DNA from: an uncultured Schlesneria sp.
GTDB lineage: Bacteria; Planctomycetota; Planctomycetia; Planctomycetales; Planctomycetaceae
Assembly (NCBI GenBank): GCA_903840265.1
Contig: CAIMFH010000161.1
Location: forward strand, 62,001-126,000
Direction of reading: 5' to 3'
DNA length: 64,000 nucleotides
The translations under genes were made by a program, and so were the position numbers. The notes under the pieces are model-generated. The model did not search any database. It worked only from the letters and a program-made list of their open reading frames with translations, and was not told the origin of the DNA. Positions within the stretch are counted from its first letter, which is position 1, and the number at the start of each line of letters is the position of its first letter. Below are positions 3,001 through 12,521 of this stretch, piece by piece.

Positions 3001-4119
3001 AGTGCGATGAATCGAGATGCCGCGTAGTCGGAACTGACCTTCGACAAAGACTTCGTCGGGTCGGCCGGACAAAGGAGCCGTGAGTAGAGGAACTCCCCCC
3101 TTGGCCAGTGTGATACCGCCGTCCTGATAGCGCAGATCAAACGTCCCCGTCCCCGCGCGAACATAAGCGCCGTTGTCCGTGGTCAGCAATCCCCAGCGAA
3201 TCGGTTTAGGGGACGAGTTCTCGCGAACGACTTCGAACGCGGCCCAGGTGTGAGGATCACGCCGAGTATAAAAACGGAGGGCGATCCCACTGGGACCTCG
3301 CCACAGATAGATGGTCAGATCAGTCGCTTCGAACGGCGTCATCCGCAGCAGCGCATCGTCCGGCCAGGGGGATCGAAGCCGTCCAAAACCATGAAACCGG
3401 GCGACTCGACGCTGCTGTTGGCCGTAGACATCCTGTCCCCAGTTCAGCGGTTGCCCGGCGACAGGAGTGAACCAGCGTTTCGCTTCGACTTCGGACAGCT
3501 CATCGTGGCCGGACGCTTTGAAGTCGCGAGTGAACTTGTCGCTGTTGGCCGGCCAAGGGGCGATGTCGCGCGCCAATGTCTTCGACCAAGGCTCGTTGGC
3601 ATCAGGTTGAAGTGGCTCGGTCTTGGCGGGAGTAGGATTTTCGTTTGGTTGTGGCGGGGTGGCCGTCGCTGGACTGCCAGTCCCCATGGCGACCAGTGCG
3701 TCGGCTGGTTCCGCTGACCCGTCTGATTGAGCAGCCGGGTTAGCGTCCGGAATTTGAGTCGGATGGTCTGGCTGGCCATCGGCAAGATCACGCTGAATCG
3801 GCTTTTTGGAGAACCAGAAGAGGCTGCCGATTCCGAACACGAGAAGCAACATCAAGACTGCGGACCACCGCCAGAGTGGCGAACGTCCGTTGGGGGCGCG
3901 GCGACGTTCATCGGCCGCTCGCTTCAGGATCTTATCGATATCCAGATCGATCTGGCCAAAGGCCCCGGTCAATTGCGATTCGAGATGCAGGTGTTCGATC
4001 AGCGCCTGCCGGACTTCCGCCGATTGGGTCCAGCGAGTGCGCAGGGCCGCAAATTCCTCGGGAGTAAACTCGCCCGGAGGTTTTTCCTGCAGCAGTTGAA
4101 TCAGTTCCTGGTCAGTCAT
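1..4119 (-). CDS. Membrane-anchored PQQ-like beta-propeller protein with anti-sigma-like N-terminus (partial)
   Basis: The frame stays open from an ATG at 4119 to the window edge, so at least 1373 residues are present and the C-terminus is missing. Residues 1-83 are charged and helical (starts MTDQELIQLLQ), one membrane helix follows at about 84-103 (WSAVLMLLLVFGIGSLFWF), and the rest should lie outside the cytoplasm. The last 300 or so residues hold PQQ/WD-like propeller repeats with the patterns ENGSVVW, ETGRQLWTR and LDGQVAWSRPL. The middle, with LRGISIHR, resembles planctomycete DUF1583-type domains, but this is only a resemblance. The start lies 15 bases after the stop of the ECF sigma gene, so the two are almost certainly co-transcribed. 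I infer that the cytoplasmic N-terminus may bind that sigma factor and the propeller may sense or scaffold outside. No zinc-binding HxxxCxxC anti-sigma motif is visible. Confidence 0.85.
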   Translation of the reverse strand, partial: MTDQELIQLLQEKPPGEFTPEEFAALRTRWTQSAEVRQALIEHLHLESQLTGAFGQIDLDIDKILKRAADERRRAPNGRSPLWRWSAVLMLLLVFGIGSLFWFSKKPIQRDLADGQPDHPTQIPDANPAAQSDGSAEPADALVAMGTGSPATATPPQPNENPTPAKTEPLQPDANEPWSKTLARDIAPWPANSDKFTRDFKASGHDELSEVEAKRWFTPVAGQPLNWGQDVYGQQQRRVARFHGFGRLRSPWPDDALLRMTPFEATDLTIYLWRGPSGIALRFYTRRDPHTWAAFEVVRENSSPKPIRWGLLTTDNGAYVRAGTGTFDLRYQDGGITLAKGGVPLLTAPLSGRPDEVFVEGQFRLRGISIHRTAPLPTVPENTHPLVVGGPPANQPWAASVEAPAEITGTRDGSAEFRVDSRDKPGIAVLPLARRGLYEVIAKVDSADPGTGIFLGDLDGRPIHRLGFFKDAATGRTTIGVLRPGEVRDQANFDFNSFPPPYHTSAQWIKIVAGLGTVQVLVSGDGRQWGHLTEDPARDLPGAVGSVGLFGFQGPQARVLKLASLEVRSLSGITSLADPQLVALAPQFTAEEWKDPVRWSHRTVDTTPPGVDLQQWIAACSVSSLTQGPPREFGVNAVKRLLSVAIQSNIATLQKLQLLDDVSLVCDMWEEASAHVVADHYDAIANQLAAAGGLHPVATIRAAVLRSPMWTNSKLRFAWEKQVSQDLIRSVYRTDWPDAMRTGQSALFWNASVHPDWVPVERAEVVARQARWVKSIAVENAPQLDDGQAGIIPGSWRHPLALQWNKEAYNVRAELQAALTGQTYEDACRVVMSINVSDGPGLLPDMDDRQLFVSLPTAVASAMQVHPEFARLMTDKFGPLGVIRVRQAVQSGDVRGVQSATLQFFGTEAAAEAHQWLGDRDLSAGRFPSAEEHFLLGLAHCLPRQREGLQSRLQLATALNGKPSADPAVASVNSIELNGAKISAAELEALVKSLAARPSAAKRFQHPAIAAAPDLNPLAYRVEQRATFDGQPGLSPDRYEFRFGDPFGKQLAAVSDSQRIYVSNRFQVNAYALPGGQQQWAQGLGSEQGEAHGMPFTPMTPLIAGDRLFVRRLAKGGTELACLNAENGSVVWSQRPGLQVLSDPVFWNGSLFALTLAKVDDDLVQVEGTRFDIESGAATSSQPLFRLRESSERSNAAQLTVSGRLAVCSMAGISACFDGAGEIHWLRRHLWLPKQVDDLADDFRVAPPLIQGNRVVMSVPGVRTVTCMDLETGRQLWTRSLSDLRGIIAMQGSKILVDTVSALTALSALDGQVAWSRPLESRLEAFQVNDQFVVASQRITVASNKTQSSLVWLKLDTGVDVAQSELFGFERPE

Positions 4120-4134: not shown

Positions 4135-4710
4135 TCAAGTCCGTTGATTATGTTCCGCCTGCTTTTTTCGACGTTCCAAGCAGTCCTTCAGGGCCTGTCG
4201 GGCGCGATGCAGCAACAGCTTGATCGCTCCTTCGCTGCGATGCAGTTGCCGGCCGATCTCCGCAAGCTTACGTTCGCCTCGATACTGCAACTCGATCGCT
4301 TCGCGAGCACCTGGCCCCAGCCCATCCAGGCAGATGGGCAAATGCCGCATCACGTCATCGTCGTCGGTTCCCTGCGCGTCGGGTGGCAGTACCGATTCCA
4401 GTTCCAGACACAGCTCGGTCCAAGCCACTTCCTTCCGCCGCTTCATTCCTTTGATATGTTCCCGCAGCAGGTTACGAGCAATTCCCAACAACCACGGACG
4501 GACGAGGGCATTGGAATCGAATCGAGCCTGCGAGAGGTAGAACCGCAGGAAGACTTCCTGAGTCATGTCGTCCGCGTCGGTCGACTGCAACAAGCGAGCT
4601 CGCAGGTAGCCGAAGACGGCGCGCTGATGGCGTTCGATCACGACGGCAAACGCCGCTCGGTCGCCACGTCGAAGTTGCTCGATCAGCGTCTGGTCGATAG
4701 ACAGCAGCAA
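4135..4710 (-). CDS. ECF-type RNA polymerase sigma factor
   Basis: This is a sigma-70 family factor of the ECF class. Region 2 is clear (RRGDRAAFAVVIERHQ, then DADDMTQEVFLRFY and the RPWLLGIARN stretch), as is region 4 (EAIELQYRGERKLAEIGRQL, then SEGAIKLLLHRARQAL). I chose a TTG start at 4710 because conserved sequence begins right there and the length (191 residues) suits the family. In-frame ATG codons at 4890, 4839 and 4830 would make the protein overlap the upstream hydrolase. The next gene, 15 bases downstream, encodes a membrane protein that may be its regulator. Such sigma-membrane pairs are common in planctomycetes. The start codon is uncertain; the family assignment is not. Confidence 0.88.
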   Translation of the reverse strand: MLLSIDQTLIEQLRRGDRAAFAVVIERHQRAVFGYLRARLLQSTDADDMTQEVFLRFYLSQARFDSNALVRPWLLGIARNLLREHIKGMKRRKEVAWTELCLELESVLPPDAQGTDDDDVMRHLPICLDGLGPGAREAIELQYRGERKLAEIGRQLHRSEGAIKLLLHRARQALKDCLERRKKQAEHNQRT

Positions 4711-7155: not shown

Positions 7156-7833
7156 TCAGCGGCGCTCGGATTGAAGGTAGCCGATGTTTTGCATGCAGAA
7201 CATCGCGAACATGATTCCGGCAAAATTGTTTCGCGATTGCGTCAAGAAAAATGCCGCAGCCAGTCCGGCGACGACCACTCCGATTGTCGCCGCGGCGCGG
7301 TTGGGATCGCGAAGTCGGCACCACGTCAAAAATGATCGGCACACTTGTCCCCCATCCAAAGGGAGTACCGGCAACAGGTTGACCAGACCCCAGTAGAGAT
7401 TGATGTAAATCAGGCTGCCGATGACCATGCTGACTCGCCGGTCGTGCATCTGGTTTTGCAGCAGTGGCTCGACCAGCAACGTCAGGGCGAACAAGCCAAA
7501 ACCGGCGAATGGCCCTGCCAAGGAGACGGCAATTTCGCGCCAGGGAGTTCGATTGTGGTAGCGCTGCGACATGGCCAGTCCCCCGCCCCAGTAGAGGACG
7601 ATTTCGGATTCCCAACGGAACGCTTCGGCCATCAAAGCATGACCCATTTCGTGGACGAGGATGGAAACGAATAAGCACATCACCCAGAGGAAGACAAAAT
7701 CCAAATGATCGGGATTCCAGCTTAAAGCAGCCCCGGCGATCCAGAAGGAAGGATGGACGCGAATCGGAATGCGAAATGCCTGCAGGCGCACGTCAAAGGG
7801 GGTCGGCTCGGTACCAAACATGGCGAACGGCAT
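7156..7833 (-). CDS. Site-2 protease family (M50) membrane metalloprotease
   Basis: A 225-residue multi-pass membrane protein with the zinc-binding HEMGH motif at about 61-65 (VHEMGHALMAEAFRW). The second M50 motif LLPVLPLDGG, whose Asp160 is the third zinc ligand, is also present. SLAGPFAG is typical of the family. Such proteases cut substrates within the membrane, often anti-sigma factors or signal-peptide remnants. The start is chosen at MPFAMFG because upstream sequence in frame is not family-like; MFG, 12 bases on, is an alternative. It is transcribed away from the retron and separated from it by a long inverted repeat. No regulated partner is evident, although the ECF/membrane-protein pair lies 2.4 kb downstream. 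Confidence 0.88.
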   Translation of the reverse strand: MPFAMFGTEPTPFDVRLQAFRIPIRVHPSFWIAGAALSWNPDHLDFVFLWVMCLFVSILVHEMGHALMAEAFRWESEIVLYWGGGLAMSQRYHNRTPWREIAVSLAGPFAGFGLFALTLLVEPLLQNQMHDRRVSMVIGSLIYINLYWGLVNLLPVLPLDGGQVCRSFLTWCRLRDPNRAAATIGVVVAGLAAAFFLTQSRNNFAGIMFAMFCMQNIGYLQSERR

Positions 7834-7929
7834 CTCCGCGGAGGCAGGCAAATATTCCAGCGGACTGTAGCGTGAAACGAACCGACAAGAAACCCGGTGA
7901 AACTGGATGCCTCGAAAGATGCGATGAGT

Positions 7930-8013
7930 GTGGCACGCCCTGAGTCTTCGAAGGGCGTGGAATTTCGGCTTCATTCATAACCACGCCCTTCGCAAAGCCT
8001 CAGAGTGTGCCAC
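7930..8013. repeat. Long imperfect inverted repeat with GTGGCAC ends
   Basis: The left arm (7930-7960) and right arm (7981-8013) are near-complementary with a 20-base spacer. Both outer ends read GTGGCAC and both inner ends read GAAGGGCGTGG. The left arm can also fold alone (CACGCCCT with AGGGCGTG). It sits between the divergent M50 protease and retron, so it could be a bidirectional terminator or a palindromic repeat element. Similar GTGCCAC palindromes occur at 22863, 35982 and 49954. Confidence 0.7.
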
Positions 8014-8055
8014 CCAAATTGAAAAAACGATCGCCCCCTCAGAAAGGCAATCCCC

Positions 8056-8084
8056 TAGTCACTGTTTGTTCGATCCGCTACCAT
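8056..8084 (+). promoter_or_regulatory. Candidate promoter of the retron RNA
   Basis: TAGTCA (8056-8061) and TACCAT (8079-8084) are each 4/6 matches to the sigma-70 consensus with a 17-base spacer. Transcription would start at about 8090-8091, exactly where the a1 arm of the retron RNA begins. The match is weak; the agreement with the RNA 5' end is what makes it worth listing. Confidence 0.35.
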
Positions 8085-8089
8085 GTCGC

Positions 8090-8269
8090 GGTCGACTCAT
8101 GGGTCGCATAAGACTAATTCTCACGTCCTTCACCGGGCGTGCGGAATGCTGCGGGGCTACCCCGCGGTCGCTCAATTGTTCGAGATTCGTGGTGTGAATT
8201 GTCGTCACGGTCGACACGACCGTGACGACAATTCGCTAGTGGATCGGTTGTGCGGCCCATGAGCCGACT
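8090..8269 (+). ncRNA. Retron msr-msd RNA
   Basis: The layout is that of a retron primer-template RNA. Arm a1 (8091-8107, GTCGACTCATGGGTCGC) pairs with a2 (8252-8268, GCGGCCCATGAGCCGAC): 15 Watson-Crick pairs, one wobble and one mismatch. The helix extends four more pairs inward to 8111/8248. The first G after a1, at 8112, is the likely 2' branching guanosine. Two msr hairpins follow: 8122-8128 with 8135-8141 (6-base loop), and 8151-8156 with 8160-8165 (loop CTA). The msd hairpin is 18 perfect pairs, 8196-8213 with 8217-8234, loop ACA. The reverse transcriptase gene starts 77 bases after a2, the normal order for retrons. The order of parts is seen; the branch site and msDNA ends are inferred from known retrons. 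Confidence 0.85.
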
Positions 8270-8346
8270 TGATGTTTAGTAACCCTGCGGAGTGAGCGAG
8301 ATCTCGCATCTCGGATGGATCGCCAAGTGTCTCAGGATGTCACTTC

Positions 8347-9678
8347 ATGGGGTTATTTTCATGGCTGTTCGGATTGTTCGGTGGACGAAGTGGGCAGACA
8401 TCGGACCGCCAGCCCGATAGCAGTCTGACAACACGTCCGGAACGGATCACGTCGACCGATGCGGTCGGCAAGCCGAATCGACTCCCGCCGAAGATCAGAT
8501 CACGGCCTCGGCTGGTCCCTTCCGCTCAACATGAGGCTTTGCGCAGACGGCAACAGGTCAAGCAGCCTTGCCTCGAAGTGGCCGGAGCCTCCCCCTACCG
8601 ATTCGCTCGCTTCGGATCGCGGACCGGACAGTACCTTGATCTGAGCGACGACGGCGACGAAGCGCTGCTCGGTCAATGCGGGCTGCCGGTCTTTCATACA
8701 CCCGAACAACTCGCCGACTGGCTTGGCCTACCACTGAATAAGGTGGCGTGGCTGGTGCATCGCTTCTCGGCGGGACATGCGGTCTCCCCAGAGAAAGCTC
8801 ACTATCACTATACCTGGCGTCAAAAACGATCGGGCGGATTCCGGCTGATTGAGTCGCCGAAGCAGACCTTGAAACAGGTTCAGGTCAAGATTCTGCGCGA
8901 GATTCTGGATTGCGTGGCGACTCATCCTGCCGCGCACGGGTTTGTCCCCGGGCGTTCGATCGTGACGAACGCGGTTCCGCACGTCGGCCAGGGAATCGTG
9001 GTGAAGTTCGACCTGACAAACTTTTACACGACCGTCGGCTTCTCGCGCGTGGTCGCGATTTTTCGCCGGTTGGGATACTCACGCGAAGCGGCGATCTGGC
9101 TAGGGTTATTGACCACCACGGCGGTCCCCAGCAACCTGCCCTTCGACCGCGCGAAGCTATATGCGGTGCTCCCCTATTTACGGCGCCATTTGCCGCAGGG
9201 GGCTCCGACATCACCCGCGCTGGCAAACCTGTCTGCGTTTCACCTGGATGCCCGGCTGTCGGGAATGGCGAAGTCGTTTGGAGCTCAGTTCACTCGGTAT
9301 GCGGACGACCTGACGATCTCTGGCCCGGTAGAACTATCAGCCGGCCTGCGGACGCTGATTCCGCTGGTCGAGCAAGTCATTCGGCGCGAGCGATTTCAAT
9401 CGAATCGCCAGAAGCGTCAGGTTCTGCGAGCCAATCAGCGGCAATCGATCGCGGGGGTCGTCGTCAACATCAAGACCAACGTCAAACGCGCGGACTTCGA
9501 TCATCTGAAAGCGATCCTGACAAATTGCGTGCGTTTAGGGCCTTCCACGCAGAACCGCCTGGGAGTGGCCGATTTTGCGGCCCATTTGCGTGGTCGGATC
9601 GCACATGTGATACAACTGAATGCCGCTCGCGGTAATCGGCTGCTTGAGATCTACAATGGCATTGATTGGCGACGTTAA
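8347..9678 (+). CDS. Retron-type reverse transcriptase
   Basis: A 443-residue RNA-directed DNA polymerase. RT motifs are in order: GGFRLIESPK (about 163-172), catalytic DLTNFY (Asp222), LPQGAPTSP (282-290), YADD (318-321), and IAGVVVN (368-374) in the place of the retron VTG motif. NAVPH at 208-212 fits the retron NAxxH motif. RT-like sequence begins near residue 112. The first 110 residues are an extension with a hydrophobic amphipathic start (MGLFSWLFGLFGG) and a basic, Pro/Arg-rich linker; long N-terminal extensions also occur in myxobacterial retron RTs. All catalytic Asp residues are intact, so it should be active. AGGATG precedes the ATG by 7 bases. It should use the RNA just upstream as template and primer to make branched msDNA. 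No accessory domain is fused at the C-terminus. Group II intron maturase is excluded because no maturase or endonuclease domain follows. Confidence 0.93.
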   Translation: MGLFSWLFGLFGGRSGQTSDRQPDSSLTTRPERITSTDAVGKPNRLPPKIRSRPRLVPSAQHEALRRRQQVKQPCLEVAGASPYRFARFGSRTGQYLDLSDDGDEALLGQCGLPVFHTPEQLADWLGLPLNKVAWLVHRFSAGHAVSPEKAHYHYTWRQKRSGGFRLIESPKQTLKQVQVKILREILDCVATHPAAHGFVPGRSIVTNAVPHVGQGIVVKFDLTNFYTTVGFSRVVAIFRRLGYSREAAIWLGLLTTTAVPSNLPFDRAKLYAVLPYLRRHLPQGAPTSPALANLSAFHLDARLSGMAKSFGAQFTRYADDLTISGPVELSAGLRTLIPLVEQVIRRERFQSNRQKRQVLRANQRQSIAGVVVNIKTNVKRADFDHLKAILTNCVRLGPSTQNRLGVADFAAHLRGRIAHVIQLNAARGNRLLEIYNGIDWRR

Positions 9679-9717: not shown

Positions 9718-10428
9718 GTGAACGAACTGTTGCAACTTCTGCTGCCGACGCGGCTGTTGCAACCGCTACTGAAACCGCTTGTTCGCTTGTTTCTCGGCCT
9801 GATCGCGATCCCGATTTTCCGGATGTTTGTGCGTCGTGTCGTCAGAGTGAACGACTTGGACGAGGAACTGGAAAAAGATCTGGAGCAATGGTTTCGCGGC
9901 GCCCTGCTGCTGCTGCTGGCGACGCAAAATATGGAGTCGACGATTTTCTTTTGGGTTCGGCCCGAAACTCGTGAGTCTGTATTTTTCATGGGCGGTCGCC
10001 TGCTGTTGGCGATCGGTGTCATCGAAGGGATGCCCGATCAGTCGCTGTTTGCCCTCATCTACCCCGGTCCGCAGCCTCCCAAAATAGAGCGCGGCCGGGT
10101 GGTTTGGAGCTTGATCCGATATCTGCCGTCCCTGGGCAAGGGATTGATCTGCCAGCACCTGAACCGATCGTCTCCGGTGCTGGCGATTCTGGCAGTAATC
10201 TGGCCCGATCAAACCGTGGGCTGGGTTTGCTACGGCGTGGCGATCGGTCAGTACCTGTTGATTGGACTCGTCGCGTCCAAAGATAAGGCACTTGGGGTGC
10301 TGCAGAAATTCGACGAAGCGGTCGCTCGCCAGCGTCATGAAATCGAGAACGAAATCCACATGCTCGCCGAAGCCAGGCAGCAGGCGGCCGTTCGCTTTCG
10401 TGGGCATGATCATCAGAGTGAAATGTAA
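9718..10428 (+). CDS. Multi-pass membrane protein of unknown function, candidate retron accessory protein
   Basis: A 236-residue protein from a GTG start, 39 bases after the reverse transcriptase stop and on the same strand. Hydrophobic helices are likely at about 17-36 (LLKPLVRLFLGLIAIPIF), 61-70, 90-108 and 153-186 (LAILAVIWP, then VGWVCYGVAIGQYLLIGLVA). The C-terminal 45 residues are charged and may form a coiled coil (VLQKFDEAVARQRHEIENEI). I do not recognise a family. Known retrons often carry a toxic effector next to the RT, and some of these are membrane proteins, so this is the natural candidate. Against this, the gene could be an ordinary planctomycete membrane protein that happens to sit between the retron and mutL. 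Confidence 0.7.
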   Translation: MNELLQLLLPTRLLQPLLKPLVRLFLGLIAIPIFRMFVRRVVRVNDLDEELEKDLEQWFRGALLLLLATQNMESTIFFWVRPETRESVFFMGGRLLLAIGVIEGMPDQSLFALIYPGPQPPKIERGRVVWSLIRYLPSLGKGLICQHLNRSSPVLAILAVIWPDQTVGWVCYGVAIGQYLLIGLVASKDKALGVLQKFDEAVARQRHEIENEIHMLAEARQQAAVRFRGHDHQSEM

Positions 10429-10520
10429 CTGGATAGTGAGCCGAGTTTCGGGGATATTGGAGGGACGGCGTTCCTGGCGTCGTGTCCAACTCACTTGTGC
10501 CATTAATTCATTCGTCAGCC

Positions 10521-12521
10521 ATGCCCCGCATTCAGCAACTGTCACCGAGCGTCATCAATAAAATCGCGGCCGGCGAGGTCATCGAGCGTCCCGCCAGCGT
10601 CGTGAAGGAACTGCTTGAGAACAGCCTGGACGCCCTCTCGACGCGGATCGAAGTCGATGTTGTTGCCGGAGGAACGGAGCTGATCCGCATCGTCGACGAC
10701 GGCGAGGGGATTCACCCCGATGACCTGATCCTGACGGTCACCAGCCACGCGACCAGCAAGATTCGCAGTGCTGACGATCTGTTCGACGTGCAGACGATGG
10801 GCTTTCGCGGCGAAGCGATGGCGTCCGTCGCCGAAGTCAGCCGGTTGCGAATCCGGAGTCGGCAAGAGGATCAACCGCACGGCGTCGAGTTGACAGTGGA
10901 CCTCGGTCGCGTCGAGGCCCCTCGATCCTGTGGCTGTCCGTTTGGCACGCAGATCGAGATCCGGAATCTGTTCGAGAACACGCCGGTGCGGCGCAAGTTT
11001 TTGAAGACAATCTCCACCGAGTTCGGTCACATCGCCGAGCAGTTCGCAAAAATTGCGCTGGCGAATCCTCGGCTGCACCTCGTTCTCCGTCACAACGACA
11101 AGATCGTTCACGAATTGCCCGCGACCGATCGGCCTTTGGACCGCATTCGATTGTTTTATGGTGCTGAGGGCGCCGACCAGTTGATCCCGGTCGAATCGAC
11201 GCAGGATGGGACTCGCATCTGGGGCTATGTCGGTCACCCCAACAATTCCAAGTCGTCTCGCAAGCAGCAATACCTGTTTCTGAATGGGCGTTGCATCAAC
11301 GATCGATCGCTGATGCATGCCCTGACCGAATCGTATCGCGGGCTCTTGATGATCGGTCGGCAACCCGTGGCGTTCCTGTTCATCGAACTGCCGCCAGATC
11401 GAGTCGATGTGAACGTGCATCCCACCAAGGTGGAAGTGCGGTTTCGCGATAGCCAGCAGTTGTTCCGGCAGTTGCTGTCGATGATTCGATCGAAGTTCTT
11501 GAGCCTCGATATTCAAAGCCAGCTTCGCCTGCCAGCGGCCGTCGGGGCCGGATCTGGCGGGCTGACAGGGTTTGCCCCGCCTGCGCCAGTTAACCGCCAG
11601 CGCGAGTTGACGTCCGAATTTGGCGACTGGGCCGCACAGCGAATTGGCGGAGCGAGTCCGACCCCTCCGTTCCGGCCCTTCCCTGCTGAATTGCCAAACA
11701 TCGGCGTATCGGCAAATGACCTTGGTAGAGCCCCAAGCGCTGAATCAATGGTCGTGTCAGTACAGCAGCCGATCGACGAACAGCCTGTTAACGAAAATCG
11801 TGCCCTTGGACCTGACGCCGAATTGGCATCGGTCGACAATCCAGAAGCCGGTTCAGCCGATGCGACGCCTGCGGAACATGTTTCCGCAGCGACAACGCTG
11901 CAGGCGGCGTACGACGCCCAACCAATCCAGGCACCGGATTCCAGGGCCATTCAGATTCATGACTGTTATCTGGTCCTCGAAACCCCGGACGGCATGACCG
12001 TCATCGATCAGCACGCCTTGCATGAGCGGATCGTTTACGAGCACCTGCGCTCTCGAGTCCTGGCCGGCGCGGTGGAATCGCAGCGATTACTCGTTCCGCA
12101 ACCGATTGAACTGACCACGACCGAAGCCGCCGCCCTGCTGGAACAATCGGAAGCGTTTGATCGAGCTGGCCTCGGGCTGGAAGACTTCGGGAACGGCACT
12201 GTGCTGGTCACACGGTATCCAGCCATGCTCCGCAAGGTCGATCTAAACGAACTTCTGCGCGAACTGCTTGTCAAACTGGACGGCGGCGGAGCGACCGGGA
12301 TGCAAAGCTCGGCACGTCGCGATATTCTGGATGAACTGCTGCATATGATGAGTTGCAAGGCGGCAGTGAAAGCGGGTCAGCGGCTATCCCAGGAGGAGAT
12401 CGAAAGTCTTCTGCAGCAAAGACATCTGGTGGATGATGCCCACCATTGTCCCCATGGTCGTCCCACAGCCTTGTCACTTAGTCGGATGGAACTGGATCGT
12501 CAGTTCGGTCGGCTTGGTTGA
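10521..12521 (+). CDS. mutL: DNA mismatch repair protein MutL
   Basis: A 666-residue MutL. The GHKL ATPase motifs are clear in the N-terminus: NKIAAGEVIERPASVVKEL with ELLENSLDA, DDGEGI, TSHATSKI, GFRGEAM and FENTPVRRKFL. A low-complexity linker spans about 350-470. The C-terminal dimer and nuclease domain has DQHALHERIVYE at about 496-507, which fits the DQHA(x)2E(x)4E metal site of endonuclease MutLs, plus SCKAAVKAG and CPHGRP near the end. It should therefore nick DNA itself, as expected in bacteria without MutH. The start MPRIQQLSP matches the usual MutL N-terminus; an upstream in-frame start at 10482 adds residues not seen in the family. No mutS is in the window. Confidence 0.97.
   Translation: MPRIQQLSPSVINKIAAGEVIERPASVVKELLENSLDALSTRIEVDVVAGGTELIRIVDDGEGIHPDDLILTVTSHATSKIRSADDLFDVQTMGFRGEAMASVAEVSRLRIRSRQEDQPHGVELTVDLGRVEAPRSCGCPFGTQIEIRNLFENTPVRRKFLKTISTEFGHIAEQFAKIALANPRLHLVLRHNDKIVHELPATDRPLDRIRLFYGAEGADQLIPVESTQDGTRIWGYVGHPNNSKSSRKQQYLFLNGRCINDRSLMHALTESYRGLLMIGRQPVAFLFIELPPDRVDVNVHPTKVEVRFRDSQQLFRQLLSMIRSKFLSLDIQSQLRLPAAVGAGSGGLTGFAPPAPVNRQRELTSEFGDWAAQRIGGASPTPPFRPFPAELPNIGVSANDLGRAPSAESMVVSVQQPIDEQPVNENRALGPDAELASVDNPEAGSADATPAEHVSAATTLQAAYDAQPIQAPDSRAIQIHDCYLVLETPDGMTVIDQHALHERIVYEHLRSRVLAGAVESQRLLVPQPIELTTTEAAALLEQSEAFDRAGLGLEDFGNGTVLVTRYPAMLRKVDLNELLRELLVKLDGGGATGMQSSARRDILDELLHMMSCKAAVKAGQRLSQEEIESLLQQRHLVDDAHHCPHGRPTALSLSRMELDRQFGRLG

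Follow-up and report, generated by a model that had tools for sequence, protein, structure and literature searches.

A probable two-component retron, mainly vertically inherited and putatively membrane-tethered, in the planctomycete family Planctomycetaceae

Most descriptions of retrons present them as defence systems that occur sporadically and move horizontally; Retron-Eco1 (Ec86) belongs to type II-A, and type IV retrons have an effector with two transmembrane (TM) segments. According to the accessible part of PMC6868368, the myxobacterial retrons Mx162/Sa163 are chromosomal, with multicopy single-stranded DNA (msDNA) in 27 of 28 strains, an inheritance inferred to be vertical and a reverse transcriptase (RT) bearing an N-terminal extension, and the same source reports for Retron-Nex1 (Ne160) msr-msd copies that have no RT within a kilobase. 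Retron-Bth1, as described in the accessible part of PMC12548924, has no obvious effector, is extrachromosomal and has its RT interrupted by a group II intron. In this study we analysed a window of 64,000 nucleotides from an uncultured Schlesneria sp. (contig CAIMFH010000161.1, forward strand, 62,001-126,000), whose genome has Schlesneria records as its nearest named relatives and belongs to the family Planctomycetaceae, and in it an element at 8090-9678 that consists of a structured RNA followed by an RT. The explanation that we favour as a whole, and consider likely, is that of a two-component, vertically inherited, membrane-tethered retron.

The element is almost certainly a genuine retron. 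The open reading frame (ORF) 8347-9678 encodes an RT with NAVPH, YADD and IAGVVVN, just as the initial annotation of this DNA had claimed, NAxxH and VTG being the names of the retron RT motifs. It scores 66.3 bits with Pfam RVT_1 and, among the PADLOC profiles, 402.8 bits with RT_other, 383.8 with RT_outgroup and 335.2 with RT_XIII; the RT_other match starts at profile position 142 of 481 and the N-terminal part is unmatched. A phylogeny had been suggested as a check, and in the RT tree the window RT groups with retron RTs; its clade is here called T1, the sister clade, kin of the PADLOC profiles RT_other and RT_outgroup, T2, and the next clade out T3. The best structural matches of the predicted window RT are solved retron RTs, as ranked by VIA-align, which only re-ranks matches from Foldseek. 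At the sequence level the features that define a retron are present in T1, namely the RT clade and fold, the a1/a2 RNA, the G after a1, the motifs and the upstream position of the RNA; this identity is as firm as sequence allows, and the production of msDNA is inferred from homology.

The anatomy of the locus follows the retron order a1-msr-msd-a2-RT that had been proposed for it (Table 1). The pairing of the arms 8091-8107 and 8252-8268 is as initially described, with 15 Watson-Crick pairs, one wobble and one A-C mismatch, and it extends inward by the four pairs A8108-T8251, T8109-G8250, A8110-T8249 and A8111-T8248, also as claimed. Between the arms the fold contains the expected two short hairpins and the 18-bp perfect hairpin, this palindrome being part of the 20-bp inner stem of msd, and a weak 14-base element (8169-8182) is also drawn in the minimum free energy (MFE) fold. 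For positions 8070-8300 the MFE is -119.8 kcal/mol against -82.1 +/- 4.8 for shuffles (z -7.8), none of the 200 shuffles being as good. A small correction concerns the spacing between a2 and the ATG, which is 78 bases and not the 77 given before. The Rfam search returned no family at the gathering cut-off for the retron RNA; the permissive matches, to two microRNA models (E 0.015 and 0.054) and one small nucleolar RNA (E 4.3), are all far below the cut-offs and were discarded. A scan for sigma-70-type promoters gave 0 sites, the sigma-70 model being uninformative for planctomycetes.

Homologous RNAs were sought at 90 T1 loci, over about 1.1 kb of DNA preceding the RT core, candidates being chosen by a pairing score with AA/GA before a1 and G after a1 required. 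A candidate was found in 84 loci, and removal of 14 near-duplicates and two wrong picks (L061 and L091) left 68 aligned RNAs, whose consensus fold has 33 pairs in three helices; 26 of the 33 carry compensatory changes, in which both sides have changed and pairing is kept, and 93.2% of the cells pair although the alignment was not fitted to structure. The covariation score of 0.441 is well above that of both controls, shuffles (0.182) and slid controls (at most 0.104), and is more than chance. The conservation of the a1/a2 pairing, which had also been named as a check, is found across the homologues with compensatory changes. The GGGG-NUA-CCCC hairpin is near-invariant, and the msd stem diverges fast in sequence with its pairing largely kept. 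When the requirement for G was dropped, the best inverted repeat, by a rough filter, was that of the retron in 81 of the 90 loci, and the base after a1 in these 81 is G in 78 and A in three, where the helix is shortened; this G, not imposed here, agrees with the earlier choice of G8112 as the likely branch point. The msDNA length of 50-60 bases proposed with it is plausible, our own guess being 55-75. In one locus (L114) two tandem RNA copies (3932-4082 and 4251-4401) precede a single RT, with a1/a2 arms and hairpin near-identical and the msd stem different.

A covariance model built from the 68 RNAs, window RNA included, and called R1 gives the window RNA 138 bits. It recovers the RNA in L061, L091, L054 and L081, which are absent from the alignment, and finds that of L078 on another contig, at a contig end; it also yields weak reverse-strand echoes of its own matches. 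Of the 15 genomes of the host genus, 14 encode a T1 RT (at least 61% identity), and the fifteenth, which is 89% complete, has only a 41% fragment. Over 150 genomes of the family, 138 contain some relative of the RT at E 1e-3 and 97 contain a T1 RT, 96 of them at E 1e-85 or better and the remaining one, G054, in two pieces (62% and 56% identity). In the same 150 genomes R1 matches at E 1e-3 occur in 97, of which 95 are T1 genomes; in G127 and G129 weak matches (29.8 and 44.6 bits) lie upstream of T2 RTs. A strong R1 match is present in 95 of the 97 T1 genomes and in none of the 53 others (Fisher p 1e-38, uncorrected for relatedness and with many of the matched RNAs in the training set of R1), and G033 and G116, the two T1 genomes that have no RNA match, have an RT that is only partly matched.

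In 88 of 95 genomes the RNA is on the same contig as the RT. Among the seven split genomes, three (G062, G067 and G096) have the split at contig ends, the pattern expected of an assembly break, three belong to genus g4, and G058 falls in neither group. In the three g4 genomes (G017, G072 and G097; RT loci L082, L083 and L090) the contig with the RNA has no RT in the surrounding 5.8-10.3 kb, and the RT stands elsewhere beside the gene of a hydrophobic protein, F. The context of the RNA is identical in kind across the three, as DNA alignments show, and the contigs give a minimum distance between RNA and RT of about 96 kb in G072, 23 kb in G017 and 8 kb in G097. The unlinked RNAs, which are outside the training set of R1, score 103-110 bits on it; they lie at L211:5123-5290, L212:4869-5039 and L213:4756-4925 and adjoin sulfotransferase-like and transporter-like genes (named by eye). 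The trans arrangement suggests that selection keeps the pairing of RNA and RT without linkage. RNA and RT would together be the unit under selection: they co-occur, several other sites contain the two together, and one genus keeps both although they are unlinked. As the RNA precedes the RT start by 23-441 bases in 79 of 81 measured loci (the other two distances are negative, at least one from a misplaced start), one might take it for a mere cis-acting leader or relic and not for retron RNA; however, its anatomy is of the retron type, its pairs covary, it co-occurs with the RT and it persists unlinked in g4, all of which strongly disfavours this reading, to which we give hardly any credence.

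As to the genomic site, the order M50 - RNA - RT - F - mutL is kept in distant genera. In 20 loci from T1-less genomes, M50 and F adjoin without an RT between them in 11, as expected of an empty site, and in the other nine at least one of the two genes is missing from the stretch. For 59 genomes, 40 with T1 and 19 without, the latter picked deliberately, a mutL tree was made: ten of the 19 fall in one deep clade together with a single T1 genome, G043, and the other clade comprises 48 genomes, 39 with T1 and nine without. Distances of RT and mutL correlate with r 0.80, or 0.83 without G043 and 0.46 when each group contributes a single row (Mantel p 0.001 in every case). Inheritance has very probably been mainly vertical, and our reading is that a single acquisition would have been followed by mostly vertical descent, several losses, several moves to genus-shared sites (g5 and g56) and at least one transfer. 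In G043 the T1 RT (L104) groups with another genus though the host sits in an otherwise T1-less clade, and its retron was probably gained by horizontal transfer. A long imperfect inverted repeat, GTGTGGCACGCCCTGAG... / ...CTCAGAGTGTGCCACC (by eye), is seen at 7928-8016 of the window, between the M50 gene and the retron RNA, and could be a terminator or a small repeat element.

The T1 RT is without the N-terminal domain of its relatives, and a helix with a linker stands in its place (Table 1). The charge of the linker has a median of +7 and a lowest value of -7 in 84 homologues. In three genomes of two genera a TM-like segment replaces the amphipathic helix. Because of the conserved amphipathic pattern and these TM-like replacements, we think it probable that helix and linker tether the RT to the cytoplasmic membrane; since the replacements represent two genera and not three lineages, our confidence in the tether was lowered slightly. 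It is conceivable but unlikely that the N-terminal amphipathic or transmembrane helix is itself the effector, restrained by RNA and msDNA and freed when the msDNA is disturbed. If this were true, one protein and one RNA, even encoded apart, would make a complete membrane-targeting sensor-killer or signalling device, and this device would be fixed in the core genome across much of a bacterial family.

In view of a possible effector, 545 ORFs around 66 T1 loci, some of which end at contig ends, were surveyed. The commonest non-RT families near the T1 RT are F (26 of 66 loci) and M50 (15 of 66), all others reaching at most eight, and no retron-specific neighbour family was found at these loci. 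Domain scans found no known effector domain in the window RT, and no known defence family was found among the named window neighbours, which are mutL, a dehydroquinase-shikimate dehydrogenase, shikimate kinase, prepilin peptidase, a glutamine amidotransferase and an HD-domain gene; nothing there resembles a defence island, and four further window proteins that were scanned have no Pfam match. A role in phage defence, which the initial annotation had implied, is not supported in that form, given that the 66 loci offer no retron-specific neighbour, that the named window neighbours are housekeeping genes and that the element is family-wide and mostly vertical; for the first of these reasons the phage-defence inference is weaker than assumed. 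A dedicated effector in cis is very probably missing, and as a tripartite defence system the retron would be without its third part in cis.

The next-door protein F deserves attention here, since in a standard defence retron it could be an effector like that of type IV, released when a phage perturbs the msDNA complex. It is the commonest neighbour and co-directional with the RT in all 26 loci where it is a neighbour; it is hydrophobic (KD19 up to 1.93), and the RT is probably membrane-tethered. Nevertheless, 49 of the 51 genomes sampled in the family contain F, against none of 147 others. T1-less genomes are among the 49, and in these F sometimes stands beside M50 and mutL; at the remaining 40 of the 66 loci, some ending at contig ends, no F was found near the RT. 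F is family-wide and also present without the RT, and as a dedicated effector it was set aside as quite improbable.

Table 1. Features of the retron and its surroundings, in window coordinates
Feature	Position	Strand	Basis and remarks
M50 peptidase gene, left border of presumed ancestral insertion site	7156-7974	-	context
a1, 5' arm of outer helix	8091-8111	+	21 positions against a2: 18 Watson-Crick, 2 wobble, 1 mismatch; fold and covariation in 68 homologues
Putative branching guanosine, cDNA priming via 2'-OH	8112	+	G after a1 in 78/81 loci; chemistry inferred from known retrons
msr hairpin 1	8117-8147	+	fold and alignment; variable, almost missing in some genera
msr hairpin 2, GGGG-NUA-CCCC core	8148-8168	+	most conserved internal element; 98.9% of cells paired
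msd template, long hairpin	8184-8245	+	inner stem 8194-8213/8217-8236; 82.8% of cells paired over alignable seven pairs
a2, 3' arm of outer helix	8248-8268	+	sequence, fold, covariation
Retron reverse transcriptase P0001, 443 amino acids	8347-9678	+	Pfam, PADLOC, tree, structure
N-terminal amphipathic helix GLFSWLFGLF, codons 2-11, putative membrane anchor	8350-8379	+	helix 2-11 in model, predicted local distance difference test (pLDDT) ~70
Linker, largely disordered, codons 12-59	8380-8523	+	pLDDT <50 over most of 13-38
NAVPH (retron NAxxH motif)	8968-8982	+	A209 and H212 invariant in 60 proteins
YADD catalytic motif	9298-9309	+	YADD in 89/89 homologues
IAGVVVN (retron VTG-like motif)	9448-9468	+	VTG-like match in 84/89 homologues
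Hydrophobic protein F, family-restricted, right border	9718-10428	+	context; no Pfam match; not retron-specific
mutL	10482-12521	+	context

Taken together, we propose that a two-component retron, structured RNA plus RT, would have entered the ancestor of a large part of the Planctomycetaceae at the M50/F site beside mutL, and would thereafter have been inherited mainly vertically. By homology, the RT may use the RNA closed by a1 and a2, prime at the 2'-OH of G8112 and copy the msd hairpin into a short hairpin msDNA, and the N-terminal helix and linker probably hold the RT-RNA-msDNA complex at the cytoplasmic membrane. Its most likely role would be that of a resident membrane-associated msDNA complex, either a sensor restraining an unlinked effector or a housekeeping element acting on DNA or at the membrane. 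The former role would make it a defence retron in which the membrane complex restrains a toxin encoded elsewhere, a possibility to which we give somewhat less than even weight: published defence retrons, in the part of the literature covered, combine RT, RNA and effector, and the unlinked RNA in three genomes means that linkage is not required in the T1 group, but no partner gene was identified, no systematic search for one having been made, and there is no known defence family among the named neighbours. The latter role, that of a domesticated element whose msDNA would serve DNA repair, regulation or membrane-associated DNA handling, is held tentatively. A family-wide, mostly vertical retron with housekeeping neighbours speaks for it, and the vertical myxobacterial retrons leave such a role possible; overproduced mismatched msDNA is reported to titrate MutS (PMC6868368, accessible part). 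However, the retron has been lost in several lineages, and the perfectly paired msd stem of the window is unlike the msDNAs said to titrate MutS. Linkage to mutL as a sign of function, with msDNA titrating mismatch repair, is weak and probably accidental, mutL being near the RT in only seven of 66 loci. The sensor with an unlinked effector is placed slightly ahead of housekeeping because the retrons of known function are sensors, even though the distribution favours housekeeping.

Several points weigh against the two-component, vertical, membrane-tethered retron that we prefer. The case for it is built on sequence and structure prediction, its msDNA being putative. The candidate criteria impose the invariance of the AA/GA and G columns and in part inflate the raw pairing of the outer helix, a fault not shared by the slide control, the internal helices, the unconstrained count of G or the genome-wide search. 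The three trans cases come from draft assemblies, and the sure distance in G097 is only about 8 kb. With regard to inheritance, the RT tree has little support at its deep forks and agrees only moderately with mutL at depth, the retron is dispensable in view of its losses (nine of the 48 genomes in that clade of the mutL tree have no T1), and there is at least the one transfer to G043. As for the tether, start codons were partly picked by the hydrophobic pattern, which favours amphipathicity, and an amphipathic N-terminal helix could bind a protein instead.

Relatives of the window RT were also sought beyond the family. A sample of 248 genomes from the class included 180 from other families; the best of the listed non-family RT matches are 48% identical, and the non-family RTs placed in the tree fall in T2 or T3. 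Viral contigs gave 393 relatives, the best 80 of which reach no more than 38% identity; the search used two peptides, and all of 89 T1 proteins contain one or both of them. The best relative in the plasmid collection is 46% identical and the best row in the phage collection 35%. The closest relative in these two collections is a T2 RT (L138:4710-6266, 46% identical) on a Burkholderia arboris plasmid, with an R1 match at 4523-4688 (26.6 bits). The host genome itself has a second retron-type RT of T2 (L116:4835-6286, G000 contig C19; 484 amino acids, 42-44% identical to the window RT), which scores 489.9 bits with RT_other and has a response-regulator gene downstream; no RNA was found for it with model R1. 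Near another T2 retron RT, L118:3001-3759 gives a weak match to a toxin domain of restriction-endonuclease fold (Tox-REase-2, below the Pfam cut-off). In addition, G014, a genome of the host genus, contains eight copies of a group II intron-like RT (475-amino-acid frame, near-equal scores) at L022, L025-L030 and one further place; in the tree, that of L022 stands with the RT of a plasmid group II intron, and the copies are possibly an expanding intron family.

With respect to known systems, no description of the T1 element was found in the literature on retrons in planctomycetes within our partial coverage, outside which key surveys lie, and PMC8867640 names Planctomycetes only in its reference list. 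The 68-sequence covariance model finds such RNAs independently of the RT. By sequence, the closest systems are those of T2 (planctomycete paralogues and the Burkholderia arboris plasmid RT), the sister clade, to which the best PADLOC profile of the window RT belongs and in which R1 finds a related RNA (E <1e-3) in 12 of the 16 loci L116-L131, plus L138; the difference lies at the N-terminus, where L116, L122 and L126 match RT_other from position 60-71 and the window RT only from 142. Type XIII (RT_XIII, T3) is the next clade out, but its member L132 has RT_XIII as its best profile with 533.5 bits, whereas the window RT scores lower on it than on RT_other. Retron-Eco1 in E. coli BL21(DE3) has an annotated effector gene just upstream and phage genes on both sides, neither of which is seen at the window retron. 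Retron-Bth1 resembles T1 in having no obvious effector and differs, as far as its source is accessible, in being extrachromosomal, with an intron-split RT, and not a vertically inherited group. Retron-Nex1 gives a precedent for unlinked RNA, although with duplicated repeats, compared with a single unlinked RNA and its cognate RT in three g4 genomes. Unlike the usual sporadic picture, the T1 retron acts almost as a core gene in much of the Planctomycetaceae, and it has a putative membrane anchor not seen in the sister clade, no retron-specific neighbour and, in one genus, an unlinked RNA gene. In inheritance it resembles the myxobacterial Mx162/Sa163, which as described are also chromosomal, widespread in their clade, apparently vertical and furnished with an N-terminal extension of the RT, whereas a membrane helix and a trans RNA are not mentioned for myxobacterial retrons in the accessible part of PMC6868368. 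Together with them, T1 reopens the question of the purpose of effectorless, vertically inherited retrons, in a family that has cultured members.
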